DNA from: a virus
DNA: 54,415 nt
Direction: 5' to 3' (one strand)
IMG/VR virus record: IMGVR_UViG_3300037153_000425
Coordinates: 1-54,415 of that record
The notes beneath the pieces are model-generated. The model did no database searches and was not told where the DNA came from. It saw only the letters and a program-made list of their open reading frames with translations. The translations under genes and the position numbers were made by a program. Positions within the stretch are counted from its first letter, which is position 1, and each line of letters opens with the position of its first letter. Shown one piece after another: positions 7,847 to 37,980 of the stretch.

Positions 7847-7854
7847 GGGCGGGC

Positions 7855-8448: not shown

Positions 8449-8449
8449 C

Positions 8450-10972: not shown

Positions 10973-10975
10973 GCG

Positions 10976-12234: not shown

Positions 12235-12254
12235 AGCGTTACAGACGATACGTG

Positions 12255-12329
12255 TCATGCCCGCGTGTCGGCAAGCCCCGCAGGGGCCTTAGCGGGCTTC
12301 CAGCCGCGCGGCTCGTCATCCTGCGCCAT
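12255..12329 (-). pseudogene. Fusion remnant of two small genes lost by deletion
   Basis: The first eight codons (MAQDDEPR) are those of the 31-residue gene at 49946-50041 in the middle element. They then run out of frame into the last codons of the coiled-coil gene at 49378-49641, whose G-W-K-P-A-K end survives here. The middle element therefore shows the older order, and about 600 bases carrying a coiled-coil gene and a membrane-protein gene were deleted here. Confidence 0.6.
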
Positions 12330-15046: not shown

Positions 15047-15354
15047 AGGACCTCCAGCGGTCGGGCGTAATCTTCGTGGTGCGCGTGCAGGCGAGCTCCG
15101 ATGCCACACCGTTGGCAGGTGGTCGGCGCCACGATGCGCCCGCTGCGACGCGCCTTGTAGAGTTGGCGATGCGCTCGCCGTGCTCCGGGTGTTCGATCGT
15201 ACCAATCCTTCACGCCCGACCGCATTTTCTCCATCCGGCGTCGGTTTCTAATGCGTGCCTGTTCGCGAACGCGCTCGCGATTCTTCTCGCGCCACGCCGC
15301 AGCGATCGCTCGGCGATGGATGCGCGCGGCCTCAGTTGTGGGCTTACTCGCCAT
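14989..15354 (-). CDS. HNH endonuclease
   Basis: A 121-residue protein with a basic N-terminal helical region (NRERVREQARIRNRRR) and a compact HNH core: C-Q-R-C-G, L-H-A-H-H-E-D-Y, L-C-T-P-C-H. It overlaps the start of the downstream coiled-coil gene by 58 bases in another frame. The middle element has an uninterrupted coiled-coil gene here, so this is a mobile, probably homing, insertion. The ATG overlaps the remnant of the interrupted gene. Confidence 0.7.
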   Translation of the reverse strand: MASKPTTEAARIHRRAIAAAWREKNRERVREQARIRNRRRMEKMRSGVKDWYDRTPGARRAHRQLYKARRSGRIVAPTTCQRCGIGARLHAHHEDYARPLEVLWLCTPCHKSTHAALASTA

Positions 15355-15388
15355 GCTCCTCCCGCAGCGCCTCGAGGTCGTCCGTCAT
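15344..15388 (-). pseudogene. Truncated start of the coiled-coil gene
   Basis: Fourteen codons, MTDDLEALREEHGE and a stop, correspond to the start MTDELEALRAEN of the intact gene at 50957-51352. The HNH start codon lies within these codons. This marks the 5' insertion point of the HNH gene. Confidence 0.65.
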
Positions 15389-15507
15389 GGGTTCGACACG
15401 CGGTAGAGCACGAGCGTCGAGAACACGCCGAGGAGGCCCGCCGCCGCCCAGAGCGCCAGCACGGCGAGCGTCTCGAGCCAGGTGGCGGGCCGGTCGTCGT
15501 CGTCCAT
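15385..15507 (-). CDS. Small membrane protein, 40 aa
   Basis: A 40-residue peptide with an acidic start (MDDDDRPATWLETL) and one membrane span (AVLALWAAAGLLGVFSTLV). It differs by one residue from the copy at 51349-51471, so it is strongly conserved. Its stop overlaps the next start as ATGA. Possibly a membrane anchor or regulator in the replication operon; role unknown. Confidence 0.6.
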   Translation of the reverse strand: MDDDDRPATWLETLAVLALWAAAGLLGVFSTLVLYRVSNP

Positions 15508-15508
15508 G

Positions 15509-15811
15509 TCAGCCCTCCTCGCCGGCGCGTCGCGTGCGCCAGCGTCCGGTGCGGGCGTCCTCGGCCGCCCAGTGGGCTTTCCACCACGCGGCGGCCTGCG
15601 CGCGGCGTGCGGTGTCGCGGGTCCATTCGTCTGCCGCACTGACCTGCGGCTCCGCATACTCGCCCCGCTCATAGGCCGCGTGGTCGGCGGGCGTGACTGG
15701 GAGCCCGAGCTGGCGCCGGCGGCGCGCGATGTCCGGCGGGTAGGTGCCGCGGCGCTTCTCCTCGGGCGACTCGACGGCGCCCTCGTCGACCCATCCCCGC
15801 GTTTTTTTCAT
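15509..15811 (-). CDS. Uncharacterised 100-aa protein
   Basis: Starts at ATG 15811, overlapping the stop of the replication gene. The last 35 residues (WWKAHWAAEDARTGRWRTRR) match the end of the 166-residue gene at 51473-51973, while the N-terminal parts are unrelated. This is a chimera whose conserved tail is shared between elements with different replication proteins. No family recognised. Confidence 0.5.
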   Translation of the reverse strand: MKKTRGWVDEGAVESPEEKRRGTYPPDIARRRRQLGLPVTPADHAAYERGEYAEPQVSAADEWTRDTARRAQAAAWWKAHWAAEDARTGRWRTRRAGEEG

Positions 15812-16563
15812 CCCCGCCTCCGTTCGAGCTCCCAGGCGTTGCGGACCCAGTACTCCCACGCGCGGACCCAATCGGCGTGGCGGACGTCGTCCCGCAGCGC
15901 GTGGGCTTGGAACTTGCCCCACTCGTAGCGGGCGTCGAGCCCTTGCCGGGTCGCGTAGGCTGCGCGCGTCTCGGTCAAGGCGAAGTCATGGGGCCACGGC
16001 GTCTTGGCTTTCGCGCGTGGGGGCGCCGACTTTTCTTTGCGAGCGAAAGCGAGTTTCTTTTGTTCAGATCCGGGTACGGGTACGGGTACGGGATACACGG
16101 GGACAGCATCGGGACTCCCCGGGGGACAATCGTGCATGTCCCCCTCGGTGTCCCCTGGGGACTCCCCCCGGGACAGACGTTGCTTCGCCTTCTTGGATCG
16201 CGCACGTTCGCGATCGGCAAGAACTTTCTCGCGCGGCGGATTGTAGACGAGATAATCGTGCAGCTCCCAATACGCGCCGCGGTCATGCCAGAGGCCGATG
16301 GTCGCGAGCTCCGTGGCGATCTCGTCGGCGTCCAGCGGCAGAAAACGGTCCTCCTCCGGCCCGCAGGCCGGCGGCGCCGCCAAGGCCGTCCCGATGCCAT
16401 CGAGGCAGACCAGGGTCCGCACGCGGAGTTTCGGAATCAGGCCATCGGTCAGATTCCGGGCGCACCACGTGATGGCGGCGACGTGCAGTGCGAAGCCGAG
16501 CGGCCCCGCCGCGATGATTTTCGCGTTGTCGAGAATCGCGTCATCCAGTCGCGCCCAACTCAT
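15808..16563 (-). CDS. Phage replication protein, type 1
   Basis: A 251-residue protein starting M-S-W-A-R-L-D-D. The N-terminal 120 residues resemble the winged-helix region of phage replisome-organiser proteins (W-x-x-L-D-D start, a T-D-G-L-I-P motif). The middle is a low-complexity Pro/Val linker coded by G/C-rich repeats (see 16099-16175). The C-terminus (WVRAWEYWVRNAWE) could recruit helicase or its loader. The middle element has an unrelated replication protein in the same place. Role inferred from architecture and position beside the attachment site. Confidence 0.55.
   Translation of the reverse strand: MSWARLDDAILDNAKIIAAGPLGFALHVAAITWCARNLTDGLIPKLRVRTLVCLDGIGTALAAPPACGPEEDRFLPLDADEIATELATIGLWHDRGAYWELHDYLVYNPPREKVLADRERARSKKAKQRLSRGESPGDTEGDMHDCPPGSPDAVPVYPVPVPVPGSEQKKLAFARKEKSAPPRAKAKTPWPHDFALTETRAAYATRQGLDARYEWGKFQAHALRDDVRHADWVRAWEYWVRNAWELERRRG
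16099..16175 (-). other. Candidate replication origin: GGGGAC/GTCCCC dyads inside the replication gene
   Basis: Six copies of the hexamer GGGGAC or its complement (one or two with a mismatch), including the palindrome GTCCCCTGGGGAC at 16150-16162, lie in the middle of the replication gene. A less GC-rich stretch (about 16025-16075) lies beside them. This is the layout of lambdoid origins inside the initiator gene. A triplicated GGGTAC hexamer lies just downstream. The role is inferred. Confidence 0.4.
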
Positions 16564-16589
16564 CGCAACCCCTCCCCACGCCGCCGGGC

Positions 16590-16610
16590 GGTGCAAAGCG
16601 CGTTGCAAAG
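16590..16610. repeat. Paired arm-type repeats, left side of attachment site
   Basis: GGTGCAAAG at 16590-16598 and GTTGCAAAG at 16602-16610, spaced 12 bases. The same word occurs as a second 12-base-spaced pair on the other side of the tRNA core (16833-16853). Such paired direct repeats flanking a core are typical of integrase arm-type sites. Confidence 0.55.
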
Positions 16611-16712
16611 GAATTTCTGGCAACACGCGGCATCTGGCGTGAAACGTGACCGATGCCGCCCCACGCGGAATCTGAGGGAGCCTGCGACGTTAGGGTGCGC
16701 CCGCTGCTCGGA

Positions 16713-16735
16713 GGTGCCAACTGATTCTTGGCGCC
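16713..16735. other. Conserved hairpin next to the tRNA core
   Basis: GGTGCCAA and TTGGCGCC form an 8-bp stem (one G-T) around a 7-base loop. The same hairpin occurs at 52869-52891 with one loop change. It lies just 3' of the tRNA fragment on the tRNA strand and could be part of the recombination core or shape the 3' end of a transcript. No T-tract follows, so it is not a standard terminator. Confidence 0.4.
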
Positions 16736-16736
16736 G

Positions 16737-16780
16737 CCCGATTCGTAGTCAGACGCTCTATCCAACTGAGCTATGGGCGC
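16737..16780 (-). other. Attachment-site core: 5' half of tRNA-Arg(ACG)
   Basis: Read on the minus strand from 16780, the sequence folds as the 5' half of a tRNA: acceptor strand GCGCCCA, D-arm GCTC/GAGC, and an anticodon arm with loop CTACGAA, anticodon ACG. After the anticodon stem the match to tRNA ends: no T-arm with TTC and no CCA follow. The block 16731-16841 is identical to 52887-52997 while the flanks differ, as expected for an integration core under selection. I read it as the element boundary, not as a working tRNA. Confidence 0.65.
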
Positions 16781-16797
16781 GCAGTAGGGAAGTCGCG

Positions 16798-16826
16798 GAG
16801 TTAGCGCGATTTGGAGGCCACCGCAA
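16798..16826 (-). promoter_or_regulatory. Candidate promoter reading into the tRNA half
   Basis: On the minus strand TTGCGG (16826-16821), a 17-base spacer and TAACTC (16803-16798) end 17 bases before the tRNA 5' end. The sequence is identical in the second attachment region. If the phage supplies the 5' half of the host tRNA on integration it must also supply a promoter, and this is the best candidate. Confidence 0.4.
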
Positions 16827-16832
16827 CCCCCC

Positions 16833-16853
16833 GGTGCAAAGCCCGGTGCAAAG
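16833..16853. repeat. Paired arm-type repeats, right side of attachment site
   Basis: GGTGCAAAG at 16833-16841 and again at 16845-16853, matching the pair at 16590-16610. Having arms on both sides is the phage-type arrangement, so this junction looks like a full phage site between two elements instead of a chromosome-phage hybrid. Confidence 0.55.
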
Positions 16854-16874
16854 GATTCGTGTGGCGAATGCATC

Positions 16875-17393
16875 CTAGTCCTGATGAATCCTCTTGTGGC
16901 AGTCAGTACAGATCGCGACGAGGTCGAAAAGCATCTCGCGTCCGAGGCGGCGATAGTGCAGGTGATGCGCCTGCGTGGCCCGTCGCTCTCCGCAGCCTTC
17001 GCACAGGTGGCCCGCGCGGTGCAGGACGCGGCTGCGGCGCGCGTGCCATGCGGGCGTCCTGAGATACTCCTCATAGCGCCGGTGCCATTCCTCGTCCGCG
17101 CGTTGTTGCTCGGCGACATACTGGGCCTGCAGCATCGCACCTCTGACGCGCGCGGCGATGCTGTTCCGGCATCCTTGGCACGTACTGCTGGTCCCCTCGT
17201 TGCGGCCGAGCGCAGTGCCACCGAGTGCCGACGTCTCTCGTCCGCAGACCGTACGGGCCGGATTGTCGAGATGGACGACATGAATCTTGCCGCTGCAGAG
17301 TTGTCCGGTAACCGGGTGCCGATATTGGGCCGCCTGCCAGAGTGGGGCTTCGGACCAGCGCTCGTCTTCTTCGTATGGATCGAGCGTGGGCAT
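16875..17393 (-). CDS. HNH endonuclease between attachment site and integrase
   Basis: A 172-residue protein starting three bases after the integrase stop. The N-terminal half has three Cys-containing loops (LCSGK, TVCGRET, TCQGC). The C-terminal half has a coiled region and an HNH core: C-E-G-C-G, T-Q-A-H-H-L-H-Y, I-C-T-D-C-H. In the right-hand element the integrase stop lies directly beside the attachment region with no such gene, so this is an insertion. It may be a homing-type enzyme. Confidence 0.7.
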   Translation of the reverse strand: MPTLDPYEEDERWSEAPLWQAAQYRHPVTGQLCSGKIHVVHLDNPARTVCGRETSALGGTALGRNEGTSSTCQGCRNSIAARVRGAMLQAQYVAEQQRADEEWHRRYEEYLRTPAWHARRSRVLHRAGHLCEGCGERRATQAHHLHYRRLGREMLFDLVAICTDCHKRIHQD

Positions 17394-17395
17394 CC

Positions 17396-18535
17396 TCACC
17401 GCTTCCCCTGCCGGCCCCGGAAGCGGGCCCGCTCGGCCGCCACCGTGCGCGCCCGGTCCATCGCCGCGCGCAGCCGCTCGACGTTGCCCATGTCGTAGTT
17501 CCGAAAGACGTAGGCCGTATGATGCCCGGTCACTTTCATGGCGTCGGCCTCCTCGAGCCCGCCGGCCCGCAGCGTGGTCGCCGCCGTGCGCCGCGTATCG
17601 TGGAACACGTAGCCGCCCGCCACCGCGCCGACCGGGAGCGCGGCCGCCGTGCACGCGCGCGCCCACGCCTTCCGAAAATCCCCGAGGCAGCCGTATTTCT
17701 TGGACGGCGCGCGCCCGCCCCGGCACCAGCGCCCGTGAAACAGGTACGGGCACCACGGGCGTGCGGCCGCCAGGGCCTCCTCGACAAGCGTCAAGGACCG
17801 GCCGACGAGCGGCAAGACGTGCGGCTCGCGCGCCTTGCACTCCTCCGGCGGCCACTCGATCACCGCCCGCTCGAGGTCGACGAAGCGGCGCAACGTGCGT
17901 GCCAACTGGCCGCGGCGGATGCCGTTCTCGAGCGCGAATTCGAAGAACACCGCGGCGTAGTCGGGGAGCTGCTCGAGGAGCACGATCGCGTCGCCCGGCG
18001 GCACGTAGCGGGCCCGGCGCCGCCGCCGGCGCTCGTCCCGCATGGCAAAGTACGGCACCCCGCGGAGCTGGCCGGTCTGGCAGGCCAGCCGGTAGGCCCG
18101 GCGCAGCGCCGCGAAGCGGCGATTGATCGTGGCGTTGCTCGCCCCGGCCCGTTTCCAGGCGTCGCCGATGGCGGTCACCTGCTGCGGCGTCACCGTGGCC
18201 GGGCGGAGCGGGCCGACGCCGGCCGCGAGCCACGCCTTGATCGAGCCGCGGACGCTCGGCAGCGAGGTCTGTTCGTTTCGCGTGTAGTCCGCCTCGAGCT
18301 CGGCGAGGAGCTGCGCGACGGTGAGGCGCCCGCTCGGGACCTCCTCGCCGTCGGCGACGGCGGCGAGCCGCTGCGCCCGCAGCCCCCGCGCGGCGCGGAT
18401 CGACGTCGTGCGGGCGCTCTCCTGCCGGACGCGGCCGCCCTGCGTGTAGTGGATCCAGAGCGTCGGGAGCACGGCCGCCGTCCGCGGCGAGATGCGCCGG
18501 AAGATGCCCGGCTCGACGGCGACGGTGCGTTTCAC
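17396..18535 (-). CDS. int: Tyrosine integrase
   Basis: A 379-residue tyrosine recombinase from a GTG that overlaps the excisionase-like stop as GTGA. The N-terminal part is an arm-binding/core-binding region. Catalytic residues are visible: Arg207 (GIRRGQ), a candidate Lys234 (EECKAREPHV), His312 and Arg315 (FHDTRR), His338 (VTGHH) and the nucleophile Tyr347 (RNYD). It would recombine the phage site with a tRNA-Arg gene, fitting the core 0.6 kb away. It is clearly homologous to but diverged from the integrase at 53029-54159, so the two elements have sister integrases with the same core. Confidence 0.9.
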   Translation of the reverse strand: MKRTVAVEPGIFRRISPRTAAVLPTLWIHYTQGGRVRQESARTTSIRAARGLRAQRLAAVADGEEVPSGRLTVAQLLAELEADYTRNEQTSLPSVRGSIKAWLAAGVGPLRPATVTPQQVTAIGDAWKRAGASNATINRRFAALRRAYRLACQTGQLRGVPYFAMRDERRRRRRARYVPPGDAIVLLEQLPDYAAVFFEFALENGIRRGQLARTLRRFVDLERAVIEWPPEECKAREPHVLPLVGRSLTLVEEALAAARPWCPYLFHGRWCRGGRAPSKKYGCLGDFRKAWARACTAAALPVGAVAGGYVFHDTRRTAATTLRAGGLEEADAMKVTGHHTAYVFRNYDMGNVERLRAAMDRARTVAAERARFRGRQGKR

Positions 18536-18945
18536 GGCAGATCGCCCTGGATCCCCGCGAGCAACTGCCGCTTCCACCAAATGACTTTGCCGTTGGGGTA
18601 CTTGTGGTACCCGGGCAAGTCTTTCCCGCAGTGCCGTAACCGCGATTTCGAGTAGCCGGTGAGCACCATCACCGCGGCGATCCCGAGCGGCTCATCGGGC
18701 TCGACGGCGTGTACCGGCGGCGGGCTCGGCACGGCCAGCTCGACGCACGTCGCCTTCGCGACCTCACAGTGCCCGATCGTCTCGATGGCGTCGCCGAGGC
18801 TGGCGGCATTCAGGGCGGCGCCGAGGGCGAGCTTCACGGCTGCCCACTGCTGGCCGTTCGCCTTGGCGTGGATCGTCGCCCTGGCCCCCGTCGTCAATTC
18901 GCCCCCGAATCGTCGCCTCCCCGCCGCATCCACCCCGCTGCCCAC
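18532..18945 (-). CDS. Excisionase-like winged-helix DNA-binding protein
   Basis: The C-terminal 45 residues (V-L-T-G-Y-S-K-S-R-L-R-H, then P-G-Y-H-K-Y-P-N-G-K-V-I-W-W-K-R) have the look of a MerR/AlpA-type excisionase domain. The N-terminal 90 residues are helical and unrecognised. I chose the GTG at 18945, about 25 bases after a predicted transcription start. The frame stays open further upstream, so the start is uncertain. Translational coupling to integrase supports a recombination directionality role. Confidence 0.6.
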   Translation of the reverse strand: MGSGVDAAGRRRFGGELTTGARATIHAKANGQQWAAVKLALGAALNAASLGDAIETIGHCEVAKATCVELAVPSPPPVHAVEPDEPLGIAAVMVLTGYSKSRLRHCGKDLPGYHKYPNGKVIWWKRQLLAGIQGDLP

Positions 18946-23155: not shown

Positions 23156-23629
23156 TTACGCTGCGGCCCCACCACCGCGGCGCGTGCGGGCACGCGATGT
23201 CCTCACCACGTCGCCACGCGGCCCGCTCCCCGTCAGCACACGGCTGGACTCGGCACGGCAGGCTTTGCAGAGGCGCCGGCCTTTCCAGCGATAGAGATTC
23301 GAGCCCGAGAATGGATGCCCGCGGAGGCAATGTGTTTTCCGAGACTCTCGCCCGCCCCACCCATTGCCGCGCAGGATGTTCTCGCGGTGTAACACGGGCT
23401 CGAGATGGTCCGGGCGCACACACGCAGGCTGTCGGCACAAGTGATCGAGCTCGAGAGTCGCCGGCAGCGGCCCGTGAAGCTGCTCGTAAACGAGCCGATG
23501 CGCGAGCCAGTGTCGCCGACCATACCAGACCCGTCCGTAGCCCCGGAGCGTGGGCCCCTGCCACAACCAGCAGTCTGCCGTAAAGTCTACCCGTGCGAGG
23601 ATACGGCGCCACCTAACCGAGTTGGTCAT
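23156..23629 (-). CDS. HNH endonuclease at the terminase break
   Basis: A 157-residue protein whose ATG lies inside the last codons of the terminase ATPase half. It has a central region with W-L-W-Q-G-P and the core L-E-L-D-H-L-C-R-Q-P-A-C, then P-D-H-L-E-P-V-L-H-R-E-N-I-L-R-G-N, an HNH_3/AP2-linked type. A second Cys cluster is in C-L-R-G-H-P-F. It may be a homing enzyme that split the gene or, as in some HK97-like phages, an HNH partner of the terminase. Confidence 0.75.
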   Translation of the reverse strand: MTNSVRWRRILARVDFTADCWLWQGPTLRGYGRVWYGRRHWLAHRLVYEQLHGPLPATLELDHLCRQPACVRPDHLEPVLHRENILRGNGWGGRESRKTHCLRGHPFSGSNLYRWKGRRLCKACRAESSRVLTGSGPRGDVVRTSRARTRRGGGAAA

Positions 23630-24311
23630 GCACGAGATCCTTAAAAAAGCCGGGCCCGGCCGAGCTGACCGCCGTGAGGCGTCCCCCACCTTCGATGGTC
23701 GGGCGAAGTGCAACCCAAGTTTCGAAGGCATGGTCCCAGAATGCTACTTCGTCCGCTAATACAGATGTGAAAGTGTGCTGGCGGGCCTGCTCCTCGCCCT
23801 CGCCGAGCGCCACGATCTCCGAGCCATTCGGGAAGCGGAGAAACCCGATCGAGTACTCGGTCTCGCAGGGCGGAAACGTCGCCGGTAGGTGATCGTGAAT
23901 GAACTTGGCGCGCCGCACGAGCTCGGCCGACCCCTCGGTCTCCGTCTTGCCGAGCTTGCGGGCCATGAACGCGACCTTCGCATGCGGGGAAAACCGCGCG
24001 AGCCAGTAGTTGACCGCGACAAAGAGCCAGGTGACGACCATGCGCCGGGATTTGGGCACGGCCAGGAGGGGATGCTCTTGCCACCGGCGGACCAGCAGCT
24101 CGGCGTACGCATGCGCGGGGTACCGCCGCACGCGGCCGGTCACCTCGTCCCGCGTCCACACGCAGTCGCGCACAAACGCCCACGGGTCGCCCGCGGCGCC
24201 GTACGTCGCCAGCGTTTTGCGTTGCTCGAGGAGTAAGCGCGCCGCCGCGCGCATCGCGAGCGGATGGTCGGGGCCGAGGACGCGGCCCGCGCCGGCGCCC
24301 GGCTCAGGCAT
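23613..24311 (-). CDS. terL: Large terminase, ATPase half
   Basis: A 232-residue protein equal to the motor half of a large terminase. It has a Walker-A-like P-K-S-R-R-M-V-V-T-W (86-95), Walker B S-V-L-A-D-E (183-188) and coupling motif S-S-A-G-P-G-F-F (216-223). It stops right after H-D-Q-L-G, where intact terminases run on into the nuclease domain. The nuclease half is on the opposite strand at 28922-29791; together they total 521 residues, a normal full length. All motor motifs are intact, so it may work in trans. It overlaps the start of the HNH gene. Confidence 0.85.
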   Translation of the reverse strand: MPEPGAGAGRVLGPDHPLAMRAAARLLLEQRKTLATYGAAGDPWAFVRDCVWTRDEVTGRVRRYPAHAYAELLVRRWQEHPLLAVPKSRRMVVTWLFVAVNYWLARFSPHAKVAFMARKLGKTETEGSAELVRRAKFIHDHLPATFPPCETEYSIGFLRFPNGSEIVALGEGEEQARQHTFTSVLADEVAFWDHAFETWVALRPTIEGGGRLTAVSSAGPGFFKDLVHDQLG

Positions 24312-24603
24312 CGGGCACGCGCGTGCCGCCCCGGGCGCGGTCGTAGGTCGTGAGCGCCGCCCGTCCCTGCGCGGCGGCGATGCCGCGCTCGTAGGCGCTC
24401 AACGCCGTGAGGCCCTCCAGCAGCCACGCCCGGAGGTCCTCGTCCTCGAGGCACCCGTCGCGGCACGCCTCCCAGAGGTCCGTGAGCGCCTCGCCGATCG
24501 CCGACAGCTGGCCCCGCTGCGCCTCGCTCATGCACCCCGAGCACGCCGCCCGCGTCACCCGGGCGACGAGCCGCAGGCGCCCGAGTTGCACCGTCCCCAT
24601 CAT
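24304..24603 (-). CDS. Uncharacterised helical protein between terminase genes
   Basis: A 99-residue protein starting by ATGA overlap. It has three Cys (SGC, ACRDGC) and Glu/Leu-rich helices. It lies between the small-terminase-like gene and the ATPase half and overlaps both, so it is probably part of the packaging operon. No family recognised. Confidence 0.5.
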   Translation of the reverse strand: MMGTVQLGRLRLVARVTRAACSGCMSEAQRGQLSAIGEALTDLWEACRDGCLEDEDLRAWLLEGLTALSAYERGIAAAQGRAALTTYDRARGGTRVPDA

Positions 24604-25280
24604 CCCCCGCCCTCCGGCCCCGGCAAGAGCCCCGCCACGCCCGCAAAGCGCTCGGGCCACTCGCCCCGCGCCGAGAACGCCTCCAGCTCCGCATCCGAGA
24701 GCTGCTCGAGCACATGCAGGTGGAGATGCGCCGTCCGCGCCACCTTGTCCCCGCTCGTCGTGAGCACCAGGTCGGCGGCCCGAATCGCGTCCGCATCGCG
24801 CTTGGCCCGCCCGACCCGCGTGCCGGTGGCTTTGTCCTTCCGCCCGCCCGCGAGCTCCGCCACGTGCTCCATCACCGCCGGCGCCGCCGCCTTCGCCTGC
24901 GCCGCCACCCCGAACTCGCCCCGCATGACCCGCTCGAGCTGCGCATCGCGCACCAAGGCGATGATCCGTTGCACGGCGGGATGCTTGAGGGCGTTGCGCG
25001 CCGCCTCGGTCGTCGTGTAGCCGATCGCCCGCGCAATCGCGTCGGCGTTGTAGCCGCCCAAGTACAGCATGGCGACCGACCAGAGCCGCGCCTTGGTCGA
25101 GCGCCGCAGTTCCTCGAGGCTCATGGAGCTACACGCCTCGAGCCACGCCTTGGCGTTGGCGAGCCGCTCGGCCCGCGTCCGCTTCCACGACGCCTGCATG
25201 GCGGCGACCCGCTCGGCCAAGACCTCGGGCGGCGCCCCGAGATGCGCTTGCGTCCCCGGCCCCGTCCGCCCGCCGCTCAT
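24600..25280 (-). CDS. terS: Small terminase-like DNA-binding protein
   Basis: A 226-residue protein. Near residues 75-95 it has a helix-turn-helix (Y-N-A-D-A-I-A-R-A-I-G-Y-T-T-T-E-A-A-R), followed by A-L-K-H-P-A-V and a long helical region, the usual small-terminase plan of DNA-binding then oligomerisation. It lies upstream of the ATPase half in the same leftward operon. It would select the packaging site. Start fixed by ATGA overlap. Confidence 0.65.
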   Translation of the reverse strand: MSGGRTGPGTQAHLGAPPEVLAERVAAMQASWKRTRAERLANAKAWLEACSSMSLEELRRSTKARLWSVAMLYLGGYNADAIARAIGYTTTEAARNALKHPAVQRIIALVRDAQLERVMRGEFGVAAQAKAAAPAVMEHVAELAGGRKDKATGTRVGRAKRDADAIRAADLVLTTSGDKVARTAHLHLHVLEQLSDAELEAFSARGEWPERFAGVAGLLPGPEGGG

Positions 25281-25732
25281 GCGACCCGCTCCCAGCGGAG
25301 CTTCTCTTGCCAGGGCTCGTAGTCGACCCGGGGCCGCGCGGGCCGCGACCACGACGCCCGCGGCACGGTCCCCGCCACCACGAACCCCGCCGCCCGCAGG
25401 CTCGCGCCCGACTCGTCCGGCCGCGTGTAGGTGACGACCTGGCGATACCCGAGCGCCCGCCCCAACTGCCGCGCCGCCCCGTAGAGGAAGCTGCACGCAT
25501 TGCGCGTCCCGTCCGTGGCGACGCGCGTGATCTCGACCGTCGGCACGGCCCGCGCCTGCAGGCCCGCCGCCACCGGCCGCCCGACAATCGCCACCCCGAC
25601 GATGCGCGCGCCCAGCGTCGCCGCGATCGCGGCCTTCGCGCCGCGCACCGGGCGGCTGTGGCGGTGCCAGCGCTCGACGAACGCCTGCGCCTGCCGCAGC
25701 GTGATCGGCGCCAGCGCCAGCCGCTCGCTCAT
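25277..25732 (-). CDS. Mom-like GNAT-fold DNA-modification protein
   Basis: A 151-residue protein with the Mu-Mom/XF1762-type layout: QAQAFVERWHRHSRPVRG near the start, then V-E-I-T-R-V-A-T-D-G-T-R-N-A-C-S-F-L-Y-G-A-A-R, G-Y-R-Q-V-V-T-Y-T and S-G-A-S-L-R-A-A-G-F. Mom converts adenine in DNA to a carbamoylmethyl (acetamido) form that resists restriction. It is first in the terminase operon, which would fit modification of DNA before packaging. Family assignment by motif only. Confidence 0.65.
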   Translation of the reverse strand: MSERLALAPITLRQAQAFVERWHRHSRPVRGAKAAIAATLGARIVGVAIVGRPVAAGLQARAVPTVEITRVATDGTRNACSFLYGAARQLGRALGYRQVVTYTRPDESGASLRAAGFVVAGTVPRASWSRPARPRVDYEPWQEKLRWERVA

Positions 25733-25914
25733 GCGCCCGCCCCGATAGCATACCGCCCCCCGCCCGCCTAGCCACCCGGCCCCGTCCGCAGGGTGGTGCC
25801 TGCGAGATGGGCACCGCCGGTCGGCCGTCGCCCCGGCCGTGCCCGGGCCCCGGCGTCGGGGACGGCTCGCGCTCGCGCGCTCCCGGCCCGGCCAGGCGCG
25901 GGTTGCCGCATCCT

Positions 25915-25954
25915 GGCCAGCCAGCGAGCTAGCAGGCCAGCCAGCAGGCTAGCC
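25915..25954. repeat. Two tandem 20-bp repeats
   Basis: GGCCAGCCAGCGAGCTAGCA followed by GGCCAGCCAGCAGGCTAGCC; each unit starts with the same 11 bases and contains GCTAGC. Possible binding sites for small terminase or a regulator. Confidence 0.5.
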
Positions 25955-25971
25955 TGACAGTGGGGCTGCTG

Positions 25972-25989
25972 ACCCCCCGCCAGGGGGGT
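25972..25989. other. GC hairpin ACCCCCC-GCCA-GGGGGGT
   Basis: A perfect 7-bp stem with a 4-base loop in the non-coding region. There is no T-tract, so a terminator is uncertain. Confidence 0.4.
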
Positions 25990-26694
25990 GCGAGCGAGCG
26001 GAGCGAGCGGCTGGTCCGATCCCGGGCCCCCACCGCGGCGCGGATTGGGTAGCAAGGTGCGGATCTGGCGTGCTATCACCGGGGGCGGGGTGGGGCCAGC
26101 ACGGCCCGCGCGCGTCCGCGCGAGGGGAATCCCCCCCTGACCCCCCCCTTACGGGCTGGGGTCGGCGGTGCCTGACGGACGGCCGCCGGGTTGGCGCGAG
26201 CCGCTCCCGGGAGCTGCCAGGCTCCCTGCCGGCCGCGGGGCGGGCAGGGACCAGACGGGCGGGTCCACTCCCCACCGCCACAGGCTCCTCGAGGCGTCGG
26301 ATGTGGTCGGCCCGGCGCTCTTAGCCCATCGCCCTACCGCGGTTCGTTACGCGGGATGCAGGGCGGTATTCTCCCGGCCGGGCGACATGTCAAGACCCGC
26401 GGCCGGGGAGGGTCAGCGTCATCCAGCGGGGCAGCGCGGGGCAGAGGGCGCTGGGGGAATGGGTGCGGTGGCGGTCCCGGCAGAGGCAGCGGCGGTGCAT
26501 GCTGCGGTAGAAGGTGGGATCATCGGCGCGTGAGGCATAGCGCCGCGGGGGGGCGTGGTCGCTGGCGGTGTCCTCGAGGGGGATGCCGAGACGGCCGCGG
26601 TCGCGGGCGCGTAGCGCTTCATGGCTCCGTCTGCCCATGGGCCCGGGCTTGTAGCCGACGCGGGGCCCGGTGCCAATCCCGTGTGGCACGGGAC

Positions 26695-26733
26695 TTGACG
26701 GGCCGGGGGGTGGAATGGCACACGCCCCGCCCC
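26695..26733 (+). promoter_or_regulatory. Promoter-like element copy A (lysis operon)
   Basis: TTGACG, an 18-base spacer, CACACG (26719-26724), then CCCCGCCCC, 10 bases before the ATG at 26744. The CCCGTG-TGG-CACGGG palindrome ends one base before the element. Shares both boxes and the trailing C-rich block with the copies at 29910 and 34235. Confidence 0.55.
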
Positions 26734-26743
26734 GTCGAGACGC

Positions 26744-27013
26744 ATGGCGAGGCCCCCCGAGCCGGTCGATCACGATTGCACCGCCCCCGGTGTGTCCCTC
26801 GGGGTCGGCCGGCTCTCCCCCCCCGCGCGGCTGCTCACCCGGGTGCTCGGGCTGCTCGAGCGGCTCGATGCCCGGGAGGTGACGGCGGCGGAGCTGCCCG
26901 GCGCCGTGGCCCTGGCCGAGGCCGTCCTCGCCGAGGTGGCGACCTTGCGGACGCGGCTCGCGCGCCGGCTGGCCCCCGAGGTCTGGCCGGTGCCACCGGT
27001 GGGGCGCCCATGA
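26744..27013 (+). CDS. Uncharacterised 89-aa protein, first of the lysis operon
   Basis: The C-terminal half is an Ala/Leu/Glu helix (LPGAVALAEAVLAEVATL). It overlaps the first holin-like gene by ATGA. No membrane span. Possibly a regulator or antiholin; no evidence beyond position. Confidence 0.5.
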   Translation: MARPPEPVDHDCTAPGVSLGVGRLSPPARLLTRVLGLLERLDAREVTAAELPGAVALAEAVLAEVATLRTRLARRLAPEVWPVPPVGRP

Positions 27014-27342
27014 GCGCGCCGGGTGGGCCGGGGCCGGCGCCCGGCGGTCCGCCGCTGCCGGGGTGGCTCGGGCCGATCGTCACCGTGACGACGCAGGTCG
27101 GCGTGCCGACCGTCTTTGCGGGCGTGCTCCTCTGGTTCGTCCTCTTGAAGGTCGGCGGCGCCATGGAGGCGATGCAGAAGGGCGAGGAGGACCGCACGCG
27201 CGTCATGGCCGCCATGCAGGACACGCTGATTGCGGCGCTCGACCGGCTCGGGGCGCGCTTCGAGAAGGCGGTGGACGAGAATATCCGCGTCAACCGCGAG
27301 CTGGCGAGCCATTACGCGTCGCCGCCGGCGCCGAGCCGATGA
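27010..27342 (+). CDS. Holin-like membrane protein 1
   Basis: A 110-residue protein: a Pro/Gly N-terminus, one membrane span (VGVPTVFAGVLLWFVLLKVG), then a coiled C-terminal tail (DRTRVMAAMQDTLIAALDRL). It is a paralogue of the next gene, which shares the G-G-P-P-L-P-G-W-L-G-P lead. The two overlap by ATGA and precede the endolysin, so a holin/antiholin pair is likely but unproven. Confidence 0.55.
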   Translation: MSAPGGPGPAPGGPPLPGWLGPIVTVTTQVGVPTVFAGVLLWFVLLKVGGAMEAMQKGEEDRTRVMAAMQDTLIAALDRLGARFEKAVDENIRVNRELASHYASPPAPSR

Positions 27343-27695
27343 CCGCGCCCGGTGCGGCGCCGCCGGGGGGCCCGCCGCTCCCCGGATGGCTCGGCCCGCT
27401 GGTCGCGATCGTCACGCAAGTGGGCGTGCCGACCGTGGTGGCGGGCGTGTTGCTCTATTTCGTGCTCTTTCGGATCGACACGTCGATGAAATACATCCAG
27501 CAGCAAGAAGATGCGCGGACGCAGTTGGTCATGCAGATGCAACAGCAGCTGGTTGAGACCTTGGATCAGCAAACCGACCGCTTCGAATCCGCGATCGAGA
27601 AGAATATCGCGGCCATCGACCGCAATGTGGCCATCAACAAGGACCAGACGGACCGGCTCGAGCGCGCGCTCGGCCTCCATCGAGGCTCGCCATGA
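27339..27695 (+). CDS. Holin-like membrane protein 2
   Basis: A 118-residue tandem paralogue of the preceding gene: GGPPLPGWLGPLVAIVTQVG lead-in, one span, then a Gln-rich coiled coil (DARTQLVMQMQQQLVETLDQ) carrying more heptads. The different tails would allow hetero-oligomer formation. Its stop overlaps the endolysin ATG. Confidence 0.55.
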   Translation: MTAPGAAPPGGPPLPGWLGPLVAIVTQVGVPTVVAGVLLYFVLFRIDTSMKYIQQQEDARTQLVMQMQQQLVETLDQQTDRFESAIEKNIAAIDRNVAINKDQTDRLERALGLHRGSP

Positions 27696-28282
27696 TTCAG
27701 CGCAAATATTTTTTCGATAGCGTCCGCGGCTCGTTGTTTGCGGGCTCGTTGGCGCAATCGCAGGTCGATGGGTTGACCGCGCTCTTGGATTACGCCGAGG
27801 CGCACGGGGTCGACGACCGTCACCTGGCCTACGTGCTCGCGACCGCGTATCACGAGACGGCGCAGACCATGCAACCGATTGCCGAGTACGGGAAAGGGAA
27901 GGGCAAACCCTACGGCGTGCCCGATCCGCAGACGGGACAGACATATTACGGCCGCGGCTACGTGCAATTGACGTGGAAAGACAATTACCAGAAACAAGAT
28001 ACGAAATTGGGCCTCAAAGGCACGCTCGTCGCCAACGCCGACCTGGCATTGGAGCCCGAGACCGCCAAGCGGATCCTCTTTGCCGGGATGTATGACGGCG
28101 ACTTCACCGGCGTCGGGTTGCCGAAGTACATTCCGTGCGCGAATCCCGAGACGGATGCGACCGATTTCTACAACGCTCGGAAGATCGTGAACGGATTGGA
28201 CTGCGCGACGCAGATTCAAGGCTACGCGACCAAGTTTGCCAACGCCATTGCGCACGCCGCGCGCCCCACGGTCGCGGCGTGA
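27692..28282 (+). CDS. GH19-type endolysin
   Basis: A 196-residue single-domain enzyme of the GH19 chitinase/lysozyme type: A-T-A-Y-H-E-T-A-Q-T-M-Q-P-I-A-E-Y with the catalytic Glu in H-E-T near residue 55, then Y-G-R-G-Y-V-Q-L-T-W-K-D-N-Y near 88-102. No signal peptide, so it needs a holin. It would cleave peptidoglycan glycan at lysis. Start fixed by ATGA overlap with the holin-like gene. Confidence 0.85.
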   Translation: MIQRKYFFDSVRGSLFAGSLAQSQVDGLTALLDYAEAHGVDDRHLAYVLATAYHETAQTMQPIAEYGKGKGKPYGVPDPQTGQTYYGRGYVQLTWKDNYQKQDTKLGLKGTLVANADLALEPETAKRILFAGMYDGDFTGVGLPKYIPCANPETDATDFYNARKIVNGLDCATQIQGYATKFANAIAHAARPTVAA

Positions 28283-28293
28283 GAGGAGCGACC

Positions 28294-28410
28294 ATGCCCA
28301 AGCGCCCCGAGGACGAGGGCCCGCCGCCCGCCGACGACGACGCCGTCAAGGACTTGGAGGACCCCGAGCCCGAGCCGCCCGAGGAGGACCCGGAGGACGC
28401 CGGCGCGTAG
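28294..28410 (+). CDS. Small acidic Pro-rich protein, 38 aa
   Basis: Starts at ATG 28294 with GAGAGGAG upstream. Composed almost only of Glu, Asp, Pro and Ala, so probably disordered. It lies between endolysin and collagen-like gene. No function proposed. Confidence 0.5.
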   Translation: MPKRPEDEGPPPADDDAVKDLEDPEPEPPEEDPEDAGA

Positions 28411-28413
28411 TCG

Positions 28414-28920
28414 ATGGCGTGGTACTACCCGGAGACGCGGCCGCAACGCCGGCCGCTGACGACGCCGATCCGGTCGGGGGGCAACGGCGGCGGCACGGTC
28501 GGGCCCCCGGGGCCGCAGGGGCCGCAAGGGCCCCCGGGTGATCCGGGCCCCACGGGCCCCGCCGGCCCGACCGGCGCCACCGGATCGACCGGGCCCCAAG
28601 GCCCCAAGGGCGACCCCGGGGCGACCGGCGCGACCGGCCCGACGGGCCCCGGCGTCGCCGCGGGCGGCACGACCGGGCAAGTGCTCGCCAAGACGAGTGC
28701 CGCGGACTACGCGACCGCGTGGACGACGCTCGGGGGCGGGGCGCCGAGCGGCCCCGCTGGCGGCTCGCTCGCGGGCACGTATCCGAACCCGACGCTGGCG
28801 CCGAGTGGCGCGACGGCGGGCACCGCTGGCGACCAGTACCACGTTGCTCAAGTCACCGTGAATGCCGAGGGCCGCGTGACCACGGTCGTGCAAGTGCTGA
28901 TTCGCGCCCGCTGGGGCTAA
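28414..28920 (+). CDS. Collagen-like phage protein
   Basis: A 168-residue protein with about 16 G-x-y triplets near residues 29-77 ([10 protein letters not shown] and onward) and a C-terminal trimerising-type region ([20 protein letters not shown]). Such proteins form triple-helical fibres on heads or tails. Its stop is one base before the terminase nuclease half. Role in the virion is inferred. Confidence 0.65.
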
Positions 28921-28921
28921 G

Positions 28922-29791
28922 ATGCCGTTTCTCGGCGCGCGCGGCGCGGCGCCCGATCCGCGCGGCGCCGCCGCGCAGCCCATTCCGGGTGTGACCGAGT
29001 GGCGGTGTCCGCGGAATGGCGTCCACGTCGTCGAAGTCCACTACACCGCCGACCCCGCGAAGCGCGATCCCGCGTGGAAGCGGGAAGCGATGCGCGGCAT
29101 GCCGCCGCGCGGCTGGCAACGCGAGTTCGAGATTGCCTTCGACTTGGCCGCGGGCGAGCCGGTGTTGCCGGAATACGTGCCCGCGGAGATGCGCCGCCCG
29201 TTTCCCGTCAGCGCCGGCGCGCGGCTCTTGCGCGGCTGGGATTTCGGGCAGGTGTGTCCCGTGACGCTCTTTGCGCAGCTCGACGTCTACGGGCGCCTCG
29301 GGTTTGTCGCGGAGCTCGTCCTCGAGCATGCGAATCTGACGACGCAGATCGAGGCGACGAAGGCCATGACGCTCGAGCTCGTCGGCGCCAGTGCCAATTG
29401 CTTCGACGCGGGCGATCCCGAGGCGTTGCATGAGATGGAGCTTGGGTCGATTCGCGCCGCGCTCTTGAAGCACGGAATCATTCTCCAGACCTTCGGCGGC
29501 CGCGGCGACGCGTCCTATAACAACTTGCGCGACCGGCTCTTGCGGCGTGTGCGGATTCCCGGCGAGGAGCTCCCGTCGCCGGCGTTGATCGTCGATCCGC
29601 GCTGCCCGATTCTCCACAGCGCGTTCTCGGGCGGCTTCGCGCGGCACGGGAAAACGGGCAAGCCGATGCCGACGCATCCGTACAAGGACGTCGTCGATGC
29701 CGCGCGCTACTTGAACGACAACCTGCAAGGGTCGGCGTCCGACTGGATGCTCAAGCTTCAGGCGATCGCGCGGGCCGACTGCGCATGGTGA
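28922..29791 (+). CDS. terL: Large terminase, nuclease half
   Basis: A 289-residue protein equal to the C-terminal part of a large terminase. After 23 extra residues it resumes with G-V-T-E-W-R-C-P-R-N-G and V-H-Y-T-A-D-P, the usual linker after the ATPase. The RNase-H-like nuclease follows: Asp107 (G-W-D-F-G), Asp162/165 (F-D-A-G-D) and Asp259 (K-D-V-V-D-A-A-R-Y), all intact. The motor half is 4.6 kb away on the other strand. It belongs to the rightward late operon, upstream of portal, so the halves are transcribed separately. Confidence 0.85.
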   Translation: MPFLGARGAAPDPRGAAAQPIPGVTEWRCPRNGVHVVEVHYTADPAKRDPAWKREAMRGMPPRGWQREFEIAFDLAAGEPVLPEYVPAEMRRPFPVSAGARLLRGWDFGQVCPVTLFAQLDVYGRLGFVAELVLEHANLTTQIEATKAMTLELVGASANCFDAGDPEALHEMELGSIRAALLKHGIILQTFGGRGDASYNNLRDRLLRRVRIPGEELPSPALIVDPRCPILHSAFSGGFARHGKTGKPMPTHPYKDVVDAARYLNDNLQGSASDWMLKLQAIARADCAW

Positions 29792-29913: not shown

Positions 29914-29948
29914 CGAGCCGGGGGGGTGCCCGCTACACGGGCCCGCCC
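29910..29948 (+). promoter_or_regulatory. Promoter-like element copy B (portal operon)
   Basis: TTGACG (29910-29915), an 18-base spacer, TACACG (29934-29939), then GGCCCGCCC, 13 bases before the portal ATG. Same plan as copies at 22921 (minus), 26695 and 34235. Confidence 0.55.
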
Positions 29949-29961
29949 GAGACCCTCGGGC

Positions 29962-32475
29962 ATGGCACGGCGAGCCGCCGGCGGCGCTGCAGCCGCCACG
30001 TTGGGCCCCGGGCGGGGCGCCCCGCCGAGCAATCTGGCGCTCGACCCGGAGATTGCCGCCCGCGTCAAGAACGAGCTGATCCCGCTCGTCCGCCGCACCC
30101 GCCAGGAGCGCAACGGCGTGCTCCGCGAGCGCTGGCTCCGCTACTACCGCATCTGGAGCGTCCGGCACGATCAGCAGGGCTATCGCGGCCGCACCAACAC
30201 GTACTTTCCGCTCGGGCGGCGCTGGATCGAGCAGTGGGTCACTCGGCTCAAGCGCGACCTCTTCCCCGATCAGGACTGGTTTGCGTGCCGCGCCTTGCGG
30301 GAGGATTTCGAGGCCCGCGTGCCCGCCAAGGTGGCGCTCCAGAAGTACTGGATGCGCCGCCACATGCGGCTCCGCACGCACGCGCTCCCCTGGCTCCGCC
30401 AGCTCGTCACCTACGGCACGTCGCCCGTCCGCAACGTGTGGCGCTGCGTCGAGCACGAGCAAACGGTGCTGCGCGACGTCCTCGACGACGACGGCACGCC
30501 GTCCGGCCGCACGGTCGACCAGGTCGAAAAGGTGGCCGATTTCTTGGGGCCCACGTTCGAGCCGGTCGACCTCTTTGCGTTCTACGTCTGGCCGCCGACC
30601 GCGGCGGGCCTGGCCGACGCGACGCTGGCCTTCGAGGACCGCTGCGTGCCGCGGAGCCGCGTCTATGCGCTCGCCGACCGCCCGCTGGATCCGTCCCATC
30701 CCGATGCCGGCAACGTGTACGAGGGCGTCGGCGGCTTGGTCGACCTCTACGATACGGCGATTGCGAATCGCACCGGCGGCGGCACGCGCAACCCCGAGAA
30801 ATACGACGCGCTCGCGCAACGGCTCGCCGACAAGGGCTTCACGGCGCCGCTCGATGCGAACGTGCCCGCCGCGCTCCGCCCGCTCGATCTGACCGAATGC
30901 ATGTGGACGGTCGATCTCGAGGACGACGATCCGGCGCCGTATCTCGTGACCCTCGGCGCCGACGAGATTCCGCTCCGTGTGCAGCGCCGCCCCTTTTTCC
31001 ATGGCGGCTCGCAATGGCTCGTCGGCCGCTTCGTCCAGGTCGCCGAGGAATTCTACGGCCGCGGGCTCTGCGAGCTCTTTGATTACATGCAGTACTTCGT
31101 CAACGACCTCGGCAACCAATCGGGTGACGCGTTCATCTGGTCGACCAACCCGATTGCGGTCGTCGATATCGGCGCCGTCCAGGATCCGACGTCGCTCCGC
31201 ATGGCGCCCGGCGCCAAGTGGCTCGCGAATCCCGCCGGCGTGCAATTCACGACGCCGCCGCAAGGCGCCGCGCAAGCGGGCTTCGAGGCCGTCTCGAATT
31301 ACGTCGGGCTCGCCGATACCTTGGTGGCGCCGACGCCGGCGCGCCCGATGGCGCCGCAGCAGCAAGGGCCGCAAGACGCCGCCGGCTTGGCGGCGCAGCT
31401 TGCGGACTCCGCCGTCGACCTCCGCGCCATCGTCGAGAATCTCGAGGACGATGTCATGGTGCCGCTGCTCGAGCGCAGCGACATTCTGACCCAGCAGTGT
31501 CTCGACCGCGACATCATCCTGAAAGTCGCCGGGGCCGACGGCCTGGAGCTCGTCGAGCATCCGATCACGGTCGCCGATCTGGTCGGCGAGTACGAATGGG
31601 AATGGCTCGGGACGACCAACGCGCTGAACCAGCAAGTGCGCGCGCAGCAGATGGTGCAGGGCATCGCGCTCCTGACGCAGGTGCCGCAGGACCAGCTCGG
31701 CGCGCAGGGCGTCACGATTGATTGGCCCTACGTGCTCCGCACCTTCTGGTCGGTCGGCCTCGGGCTCCCCGACGCCGAGCGCGTCATCAAGACGGCGAAG
31801 CTCGAGCCGTCGGACTGGCGGTGGGAGAACGCGCTGGCGCGTGTGAATCGCGCCGAGGAGCTCCGCGTGTCGCCGCAAGACGATCACACGGCACATATCC
31901 AGGGGCACCAATCCCTGCTCGAGAGCGACAGTCTGACCGAGGACGCCCGGACGGGGCTCCAGGCGCACGTCCACCAACACATCGGGCTCGCCATTGCCGC
32001 CGAGGCGCAAGCGTTGTCGCAGGCCATGGCACAGCTCGCCGGCCCCGCCGGTCTGCCCGGGCCGCCCGGGCCTCCGCCGGGAGCGCCTCCTGGCCTGCCA
32101 CCGGGCCCTCTCCCCATGCCCGGCGGTGGGCCCCCTCCGCCGCCGGGGGCGCTCCCGCCGGGTGCTCCGCCCGGCGGCCCGCCCGGGCCGCCCCCGATGC
32201 TACCGCCGGGACCGCCGCCTGGCGCGCCCCCGATGGTCCCACCGCGCTTTGTGCCGGGCGTGCCCGGGGCCGGCGTCAACGCGCTCGCCCGGTTGCTCGG
32301 GCCGCCGACCGGGCCCCGAGGCGGCGGGCCGGCGCGGCCGCATAGCGACGCCCGGAACCGCGCCAAGGCAGTGCTGGGCATCCGGCCACCGGCGCCGCTC
32401 GGGCAAGGCCGCGTCGGCAAGACGCGCGGCATGGCCGATTTGTTCCGGGGCCTCCCGCGGCTCCCGACGGTCTGA
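29962..32475 (+). CDS. Portal protein
   Basis: An 837-residue protein. Residues 1-690 have the helical wing/stem features of podovirus portals (RNGVLRERWLRYYRIW start, a P-x-x-W-L-R-Q-L-V-T-Y-G-T-S-P-V-R-N-V segment and a long helical end). The last 120 residues are an unusual Pro/Gly-rich tail (G-P-P-P-G-A-P-P and similar) with a basic end. Position between terminase and scaffold/capsid supports the call. Start at ATG 29962, after the promoter element. Confidence 0.7.
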   Translation: MARRAAGGAAAATLGPGRGAPPSNLALDPEIAARVKNELIPLVRRTRQERNGVLRERWLRYYRIWSVRHDQQGYRGRTNTYFPLGRRWIEQWVTRLKRDLFPDQDWFACRALREDFEARVPAKVALQKYWMRRHMRLRTHALPWLRQLVTYGTSPVRNVWRCVEHEQTVLRDVLDDDGTPSGRTVDQVEKVADFLGPTFEPVDLFAFYVWPPTAAGLADATLAFEDRCVPRSRVYALADRPLDPSHPDAGNVYEGVGGLVDLYDTAIANRTGGGTRNPEKYDALAQRLADKGFTAPLDANVPAALRPLDLTECMWTVDLEDDDPAPYLVTLGADEIPLRVQRRPFFHGGSQWLVGRFVQVAEEFYGRGLCELFDYMQYFVNDLGNQSGDAFIWSTNPIAVVDIGAVQDPTSLRMAPGAKWLANPAGVQFTTPPQGAAQAGFEAVSNYVGLADTLVAPTPARPMAPQQQGPQDAAGLAAQLADSAVDLRAIVENLEDDVMVPLLERSDILTQQCLDRDIILKVAGADGLELVEHPITVADLVGEYEWEWLGTTNALNQQVRAQQMVQGIALLTQVPQDQLGAQGVTIDWPYVLRTFWSVGLGLPDAERVIKTAKLEPSDWRWENALARVNRAEELRVSPQDDHTAHIQGHQSLLESDSLTEDARTGLQAHVHQHIGLAIAAEAQALSQAMAQLAGPAGLPGPPGPPPGAPPGLPPGPLPMPGGGPPPPPGALPPGAPPGGPPGPPPMLPPGPPPGAPPMVPPRFVPGVPGAGVNALARLLGPPTGPRGGGPARPHSDARNRAKAVLGIRPPAPLGQGRVGKTRGMADLFRGLPRLPTV

Positions 32476-35777: not shown

Positions 35778-37109
35778 ATGCCTGGAAGTACGTACAACTA
35801 CAGCGATCCGGGGCTTTCGACCTCGACGACGCTGGCGAACGACCTCGCGCCACTCTGGCTCCAGGACGAGCTCCTCGCCGTCGCCGAGAAGCTGACCGTG
35901 TTCCAAGATATTGGCGACACGCCGAACATGCCTGAGGGCGAGGGGAAGACGTATTCGGCGCAGCGCTACGAGCGGCTCTCGCTGCCGGGGGCGCCGCTCA
36001 CCGAGGGCATCACGCCGGACTCGACGCCGCTCGTCGTCAACAAGGTGCAGGCCATGCTCGAGCAGTGGGGCATGGTCGTGTCGCTCACCGACGTGGCCTT
36101 GATGACGACCAAGCATCCGGCACTCACCGCCGCCAAGGACCGGCTCGGCAACGCCTCGGCCGAGTTGCAGGACCGCGAAATCCAGAAGGTCCTCATGGGC
36201 GCCGGTCAGGTCGTCTTCCCGGGCGGCAAGACGTCGCGCTCGACGCTGGTCGCCGGCGACCTGCCGACCACCGACTTCATTTCCGGCATCGTCGCGACGC
36301 TCCGCCAGCTCGGCGCGCCGACCTTCCCGGGCGCCATGTATGCCGGCGTGGTCGACCCGTACAACGAGCAGGATCTCGCGAAGGACAACACCTTCGTCCT
36401 CTCGCATCAGTACGCCGAGACCACCGCGCTCATGAACGCCGAGATCGGCCGGTGGCGCGGCGTGCGCTGGAAGCGCTCGAACCTGCTCCCGATCGTCTCG
36501 CTGCTGGCGACCGGCGCCGGCGGCGCCTCGGCCACCAACCAGGCCGCCGGGACGGGCGAGACGGGGTTTACGGCCGGCTCGACCGTCAAGGTCGTCGTCG
36601 CCCTCGCCGACCCCATTTCGGGCCTCGACGTCAAGCAGATCGCGACGGCGAGCGTGACGAATGCGTCGGCCTACACGGTTGCCTTCACGATCACGGCGTC
36701 CGCCCCCGAGGGTCGCTACAACGTGTACGTGAGCGCCGAGGGCGGCACCGTGCCGACCTATCAGACGACCGTGTCGAAGCCGGTCGGGGCGCAGTACGTC
36801 GGCGTCGTCGCCAAGGCCGTCACGAGCGCCGCCGCCGCGACGTCGGTCGGCTACAGCGCCACCGGGTCGCCCGCCGGTGCCGACCCGCCGGCCACCGGCT
36901 CGGTGCATGTCGGCTACATCTTCGGCAAGAGCTCGTTCGCGGTGCCCGCGATCGGGAGCCGCGTCGAGACGACGCTCACGCCGGCGACCGCCAGCGACTC
37001 CGATCCCTTGAAGCAGCGCCGCAAGGCCGGCTTCAAGTTCATGACCAAGACGTGCATCCTCAACACCGACTTCTTCCGGCGCTTCGAGTGTCAGAGCGCC
37101 TTCTCGTGA
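35778..37109 (+). CDS. Major capsid protein, N4-gp56-like
   Basis: A 443-residue protein that resembles the N4 gp56 capsid family: a Y-S-D-P-G-L-S start, V-F-Q-D-I-G-D-T-P, P-L-T-E-G-I-T-P and L-A-K-D-N-T-F-V-L-S-H-Q. Between about residues 245 and 350 there is a beta-rich insertion (VKVVVALADPISGLDVKQI, then GRYNVYVS) that looks Ig-like, probably a surface-exposed domain. Preceded by a GGAGG site and by the scaffold. Confidence 0.8.
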   Translation: MPGSTYNYSDPGLSTSTTLANDLAPLWLQDELLAVAEKLTVFQDIGDTPNMPEGEGKTYSAQRYERLSLPGAPLTEGITPDSTPLVVNKVQAMLEQWGMVVSLTDVALMTTKHPALTAAKDRLGNASAELQDREIQKVLMGAGQVVFPGGKTSRSTLVAGDLPTTDFISGIVATLRQLGAPTFPGAMYAGVVDPYNEQDLAKDNTFVLSHQYAETTALMNAEIGRWRGVRWKRSNLLPIVSLLATGAGGASATNQAAGTGETGFTAGSTVKVVVALADPISGLDVKQIATASVTNASAYTVAFTITASAPEGRYNVYVSAEGGTVPTYQTTVSKPVGAQYVGVVAKAVTSAAAATSVGYSATGSPAGADPPATGSVHVGYIFGKSSFAVPAIGSRVETTLTPATASDSDPLKQRRKAGFKFMTKTCILNTDFFRRFECQSAFS

Positions 37110-37630: not shown

Positions 37631-37980
37631 TCGCCCGGGGCCCTGCGGCGCGGCTCGGGCCGACGCCCCCGTTTTCCGGCCAGCTCCTCCGCGTGACGGG
37701 CGAGGGCGAGCAGGTGACGATCGCCTTCACGGCGTCGACGTCCGCCGAGCTCGCCGAGGCGCTCGCCATTGCCGGCGCCGCCGCCCTCGCCCGCCTGAAA
37801 GCCAACAACGCCGCCGTCCTCGAGGCCGGCGCGCACTTCGAGGACCGGCAACGCCAGGTGTACGCGCACGCGGTGGCGCAGCTCCGCCGCGAGCTCGGCG
37901 TGCCCGACCCGCCCGCGGAGGAGGACGCGACCCGTGCCGACGATCCCGCCGGGGCGGTACACGCGGCAGAAAATCCGTGA
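37627..37980 (+). CDS. Uncharacterised 117-aa head-tail joining region protein
   Basis: Starts by ATGA overlap. A beta strand (EQVTIAFTAS) followed by Ala-rich helices (AEALAIAGAAALARLKANNA). It overlaps the start of the adaptor gene by 47 bases in another frame. Confidence 0.5.
   Translation: MIARGPAARLGPTPPFSGQLLRVTGEGEQVTIAFTASTSAELAEALAIAGAAALARLKANNAAVLEAGAHFEDRQRQVYAHAVAQLRRELGVPDPPAEEDATRADDPAGAVHAAENP

Follow-up and report, generated by a model that had tools for sequence, protein, structure and literature searches.

The virus record IMGVR_UViG_3300037153_000425 from IMG/VR (54,415 nucleotides; the whole stretch is called the window here) encodes the large terminase subunit, TerL, in two genes on opposite strands. 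Piece 1 (minus strand, 232 residues) is the ATPase core, and piece 2 (plus strand, 289 residues) comprises the ATPase lid, the hinge, and the nuclease. Very probably, an exposed loop of TerL is where evolution has divided the protein between two genes, whose products would assemble non-covalently as the packaging motor. The best explanation is a three-gene terminase: the small subunit (TerS), the ATPase core, and the lid-hinge-nuclease.

Both open reading frames (ORFs) had been reported in a preliminary description of the window, and their coordinates and strands (Table 1) were confirmed, along with a summed length normal for TerL: 521 residues, compared with mostly 506-519 for intact relatives. 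For piece 1, PHROG_2 ("terminase large subunit") is matched at E 8e-7, and a profile built from its family can be aligned with residues 92-298 of T4 gp17 (E 1.6e-15). Against the predicted model of piece 1 (moderate, pLDDT 68), T4 gp17 ranks first, but with a Z score of 7.4 over 135 residues. Piece 2 has no match in PHROGs or Pfam, and PDB sequences searched with the nuclease profile gave no true match. Its predicted model resembles both the D6E TerL nuclease (Z 19.4 over 172 residues, rmsd 2.3) and T4 gp17 (Z 14.6).

The motifs of a complete TerL are distributed over the two products. Piece 1 contains Walker B (D187-E188) and motif III (S216-S-A-G-P-G-F-F). The Walker A-like motif mentioned in the preliminary description is present too, but in a deviant form, K87-S-R-R-M, that is missing the usual P-loop Gly-Lys. 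Piece 2 contains the three acidic residues of an RNase H-like nuclease, D107, D165, and D259. Wider profiles recovered 164 loci with both parts, or 105 non-redundant relatives after removal of near-copies; K87, R89, D187, E188, and S216 of piece 1 are conserved across these 105, as are the three nuclease acids of piece 2.

Where, then, is the protein cut? The preliminary description had divided it into an ATPase half and a nuclease half. Two genes on opposite strands are indeed present, but the "nuclease" gene also holds the ATPase lid and hinge. Piece 1 ends nine residues past the FF that trails motif III. On T4 gp17 the break falls right after residue 298, about 60 residues ahead of the nuclease, which begins at residue 359. 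In the predicted model of piece 2, the nuclease match is confined to residues 79-276 (T4 gp17 from 359). Residues 1-78, the lid and hinge, include the motifs H-Y-T-A-D-P and G-W-x-R-E-x-E, which intact relatives and T4-like terminases carry between motif III and the nuclease, that is, in the lid and hinge. The cut therefore lies within the ATPase domain, between core and lid, and the lid, hinge, and nuclease remain a single chain. In T4, the lid is the "transmission", joined through the hinge to the nuclease "wheel", and translocation is lost when the domains are parted at the hinge (PMC9958956). (The name "lid" for this ATPase subdomain is used also in PMC5727402.)

The preliminary description had recommended a search for the same split in relatives, and it was found, with identical gene ends, at about 110 IMG/VR loci in total. 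The scan returned 57 loci per gene; with few exceptions these are 71-100% identical and share the same terminal residues. The stop codon of piece 1 (TAG, TAA, or TGA) directly follows H-D-Q-L-G or a variant in all 49 distinct sequences of the window's clade. Piece 2 starts at the same codon (MPFL) in 45 of 45 distinct relatives, as ATG in 27 and GTG in 18. A Shine-Dalgarno sequence is present in 30 of 67 split loci, compared with 12 of 32 intact controls, and is uninformative about the piece 2 start. The flanking DNA past both ends is unrelated between phages. With fixed ends and variable flanks, these look like two ordinary genes rather than one interrupted gene with a removable insert.

Purifying selection on the two genes is strong: dN/dS, computed against relatives of more than 85% identity, is 0.06 for piece 1 and 0.10 for piece 2, and 0.14 for the portal gene. 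The evolutionary distances of the two pieces correlate (Pearson 0.67, a value reached in none of 300 permutations), and comparison of these distances revealed no clear case of reshuffling between lineages. In loci L028 (3265-3375) and L029 (1915-2025), the opening 37 codons of the nuclease gene occur a second time, about 0.5 kb upstream of the complete gene, which points to a past duplication or insertion at the gene's 5' end.

The two products might be rejoined into one TerL chain by RNA trans-splicing, a split intein, or recoding. The terL gene of the Jug phages is also found in two to three gene pieces, split by group I introns that are spliced out to yield one chain (PMC12363816). Inteins, moreover, occur in the present family: at nuclease motifs I and III in intact relatives L267 (9905-12436) and L275 (146-2710), and at Walker B in split relative L165 (ORF 2399-3976). 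These sites are away from the break, however, where neither an intein, in agreement with the preliminary description, nor an intron was found. Searches of the window, four close relatives, and 23 further loci gave no group I or group II intron and no intron family match. No coding sequence continues past HDQLG, nothing is shared after piece 1 or before piece 2, and recoding is unable to join genes on opposite strands. Rejoining is accordingly very unlikely.

A different origin was proposed in the preliminary description, namely a reversible or accidental inversion. On this view an inversion broke an intact TerL gene, and the locus is either dead or a flipping switch. Flipping 23613-28921 does set the pieces head to tail. 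The 105 non-redundant relatives comprise 67 same-strand splits, 6 opposite-strand splits, and 32 intact genes; the 70% that are split is a biased frequency, because the loci were retrieved with split queries. Gaps between same-strand pieces range from small overlaps up to 5.5 kb. Some of the short-overlap splits could be assembly frameshifts; splits whose pieces lie hundreds to thousands of bases apart cannot be explained in that way. All 73 splits fall in one loop, which in intact relatives is variable and mostly 41-59 residues long.

Trees of these sequences (quick searches, with SH-aLRT support only) place the opposite-strand phages in one clade (support 100), nested within an all-split clade of 12 (support 100). 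In the remaining members of the latter, L113, L114, L118, L119, L199, and L213, the gene is split at the same place but both pieces share a strand. Because the opposite-strand clade is nested among same-strand split lineages, the split on these trees came first and the inversion later, so that inversion did not cause the break. The trees contain at least 10 changes between split and intact forms, with or without a T4-like terminase root; if re-fusion is disallowed, 17 separate splits are needed.

Neither a dead locus nor a switch fits the window's own clade. Purifying selection acts on both genes, and the motifs have not decayed in relatives. Both genes occur together on 13 contigs (the window, L002/L109, L003, L012, L014, L015, L020, L022, L039, L042, L049, L016/L085, and L056/L108), on opposite strands in every one; none shows the fused or flipped form. 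Wherever they are visible in these contigs, TerS is on the piece 1 strand and the portal gene on the piece 2 strand. No long inverted repeat pairing the two breakpoints was found. Breakage by inversion is thus highly improbable, whether the outcome is taken to be a ruined locus or a reversible one.

Two further features of the break had been pointed out in the preliminary description. The start codon of an HNH endonuclease gene (23629) does lie in the final codons of piece 1. However, an HNH gene follows piece 1 in 5 of 58 relatives, three of which are near-copies of the window, and in 6 of 60 one follows piece 2, so the HNH gene is an incidental neighbour and was rejected as the cause of the split. 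The sequence CTCGG is present at both breakpoints, but it is merely the codon pair for L-G; relatives have CTTGG, CTAGG, TTAGG, or ATCGG, and its occurrence is incidental rather than a mark of recombination. As a separate observation, packaging genes seem to attract free-standing HNH endonucleases, in a minority of relatives and beside either piece; those with an HNH gene after the nuclease gene include L002, L032, L036, L040, and L053.

Could the arrangement be an artefact, with genes wrongly joined in a metagenome contig? The window itself resembles a join of two strains around a circular map. Its ends are colinear diverged copies (1-18791 and 37965-54415, 69-97% identical in pieces, with a period of about 37.96 kb), most divergent in the tail-fibre genes, and a relative of 37,859 bases has an identical map opened elsewhere. 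The contig is about 1.4 turns of a circular map of about 38 kb, probably with two strains joined. Both terminase genes, however, fall where the window is single-copy, and the same arrangement recurs in the 12 further contigs, which come from about 10 other metagenomes. Because independent contigs agree, assembly error as a source of the opposite-strand order is ruled out; its probability is close to nil.

The periodic ends also mean that the window covers the whole unit, in which portal, major head protein, tail fibre, and lysis genes are all present. An intact TerL gene elsewhere in this unit, raised in the preliminary description as grounds for rejecting a split terminase, was looked for and not found: TerL family searches match piece 1 only. 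This result bears on another explanation, that the pieces no longer constitute one TerL. Separate genes can diverge in role, and one or both pieces might have taken a separate function, with packaging carried out by an unseen motor or lid. That is unlikely, as the lid, hinge, and nuclease motifs are all retained, the unit yielded no second TerL family, and piece 1 stays beside TerS and piece 2 beside the portal gene.

Table 1. Terminase genes and their neighbours in the window
Feature	Coordinates	Strand	Basis or remark
TerL piece 1, ATPase core (T4 gp17 NsubI equivalent)	23613..24311	-	motifs, PHROG_2, gp17 alignment
TerL piece 2, ATPase lid (NsubII), hinge, and nuclease	28922..29791	+	model match, conserved motifs
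Free-standing HNH endonuclease (HNH_3, PHROG_826)	23156..23629	-	start overlaps piece 1 end by 17 nt
118-residue ORF between TerS and piece 1	24304..24660	-	in window and near-copies only; no family match
Probable small terminase (TerS), conserved part of ORF 24600-25814	24600..25268	-	position, synteny
Mom-like DNA modification gene (PHROG_1384)	25277..25732	-	E 6.5e-33; adjoins probable TerS
Endolysin (GH19-like), upstream of piece 2	27692..28282	+	family matches
Collagen-like tail fibre gene	28414..28920	+	stops 1 nt before piece 2 start codon
Portal / head-tail adaptor (PHROG_332, SU10-type), downstream of piece 2	29926..32475	+	family match, synteny
Major head protein (PHROG_1357)	35778..37109	+	family match

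The probable TerS gene shares the strand of piece 1 and precedes it, and this synteny holds in nearly all relatives, including L113. A domain search gave no match, so its identity is assigned from position. The Mom-like gene is found also in L003, L039, L041, and L051, at differing sites near the terminase genes. Two adjacent, related genes for holin-like small membrane proteins (26992-27146 and 27321-27469) are 74% identical over 155 nt.

These observations suggest a model for a two-piece motor. The suggestion in the preliminary description that the terminase has two parts, each produced from its own transcription unit, is supported. Of the two divergent units, one would encode TerS and the ATPase core, and the other the lysis proteins, tail fibre, lid-hinge-nuclease, portal, and capsid. 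Piece 1 would be the ATPase core "engine", and piece 2 the lid, hinge, and nuclease, or "transmission" plus "wheel". In trans and with no covalent link, piece 2 would cover the ATP site of piece 1 with its lid. Several of these pairs, with TerS, would presumably make up the packaging ring seated on the portal.

We infer that both proteins are produced, bind each other, and package DNA as a pair because all motifs are conserved and the role of the lid is known. Some considerations weigh against this model. The AlphaFold model of lone piece 1 is of moderate quality, with confidence low across residues 185-221. Among 50,697 phage records no isolate with the split was found; the matches examined have only single-gene TerLs, the closest of them at less than 40% identity.

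How does this terminase compare with known systems? It shares with single-chain TerLs such as T4 gp17 and D6E TerL the same motifs in the same order, the total length, and the TerS and portal neighbours, and differs from them in being two genes, cut between ATPase core and lid. Intact single-chain relatives include Megasphaera locus L141, Pasteurella phage Pmp11, and Pseudomonas phage Rollin; GTDB genomes gave a single match, an intact TerL in Megasphaera. A functional parallel is the NrdA protein of phage Aeh1, an essential enzyme of two polypeptides whose gene was split by the mobE homing endonuclease. In contrast, no endonuclease is tied to the break described here, and the genes are on opposite strands. 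The herpesvirus terminase gene UL15 has two exons with opposite-strand genes between them, spliced to one mRNA. Phage annotators name the ATPase and nuclease parts of TerL separately, and scattered two-gene cases may be known to specialists. A literature search found no description of a conserved TerL cut between core and lid, or of pieces on opposite strands.

Two isolated phages offer partial parallels. The lytic Parabacteroides phage phiPDS1 (MN929097) has its TerL annotated in two genes, for which its authors suspected the codon table or the assembly (PMC10773633). Its break comes after 337 residues (148 follow), much further downstream than here, and its sequence looks like another TerL family. 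In this terL (locus L287, 23502-25054), 92 nt separate the genes, and a frameshift instead of a true split is possible. In Enterococcus phage iF6, terL is interrupted by two VSR endonuclease genes, but only a 95-residue fragment is lost, and the authors think that only the long part is functional (PMC10054541).

Models of the packaging motor assume that ATPase and nuclease interact through one chain. A repeated natural cut between ATPase core and lid marks which joint can be non-covalent, and a natural two-part motor provides a means to test the coupling of ATP hydrolysis to DNA movement. There is a practical concern as well. Tailed phages are commonly counted and classified by their TerL, and a pipeline that demands the full-length protein would overlook these viruses or assign them wrongly; by itself the nuclease piece, as noted, matches neither PHROGs nor Pfam.

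The broadest reading is about evenly balanced: that a two-piece motor is widespread in uncultivated phages, with the ATP site of each ring subunit completed in trans by the lid of a second protein, and with a split that has arisen or been undone many times at one loop. If so, having separate operons on opposite strands would allow engine and nuclease to be adjusted independently of each other, in timing or in ratio.
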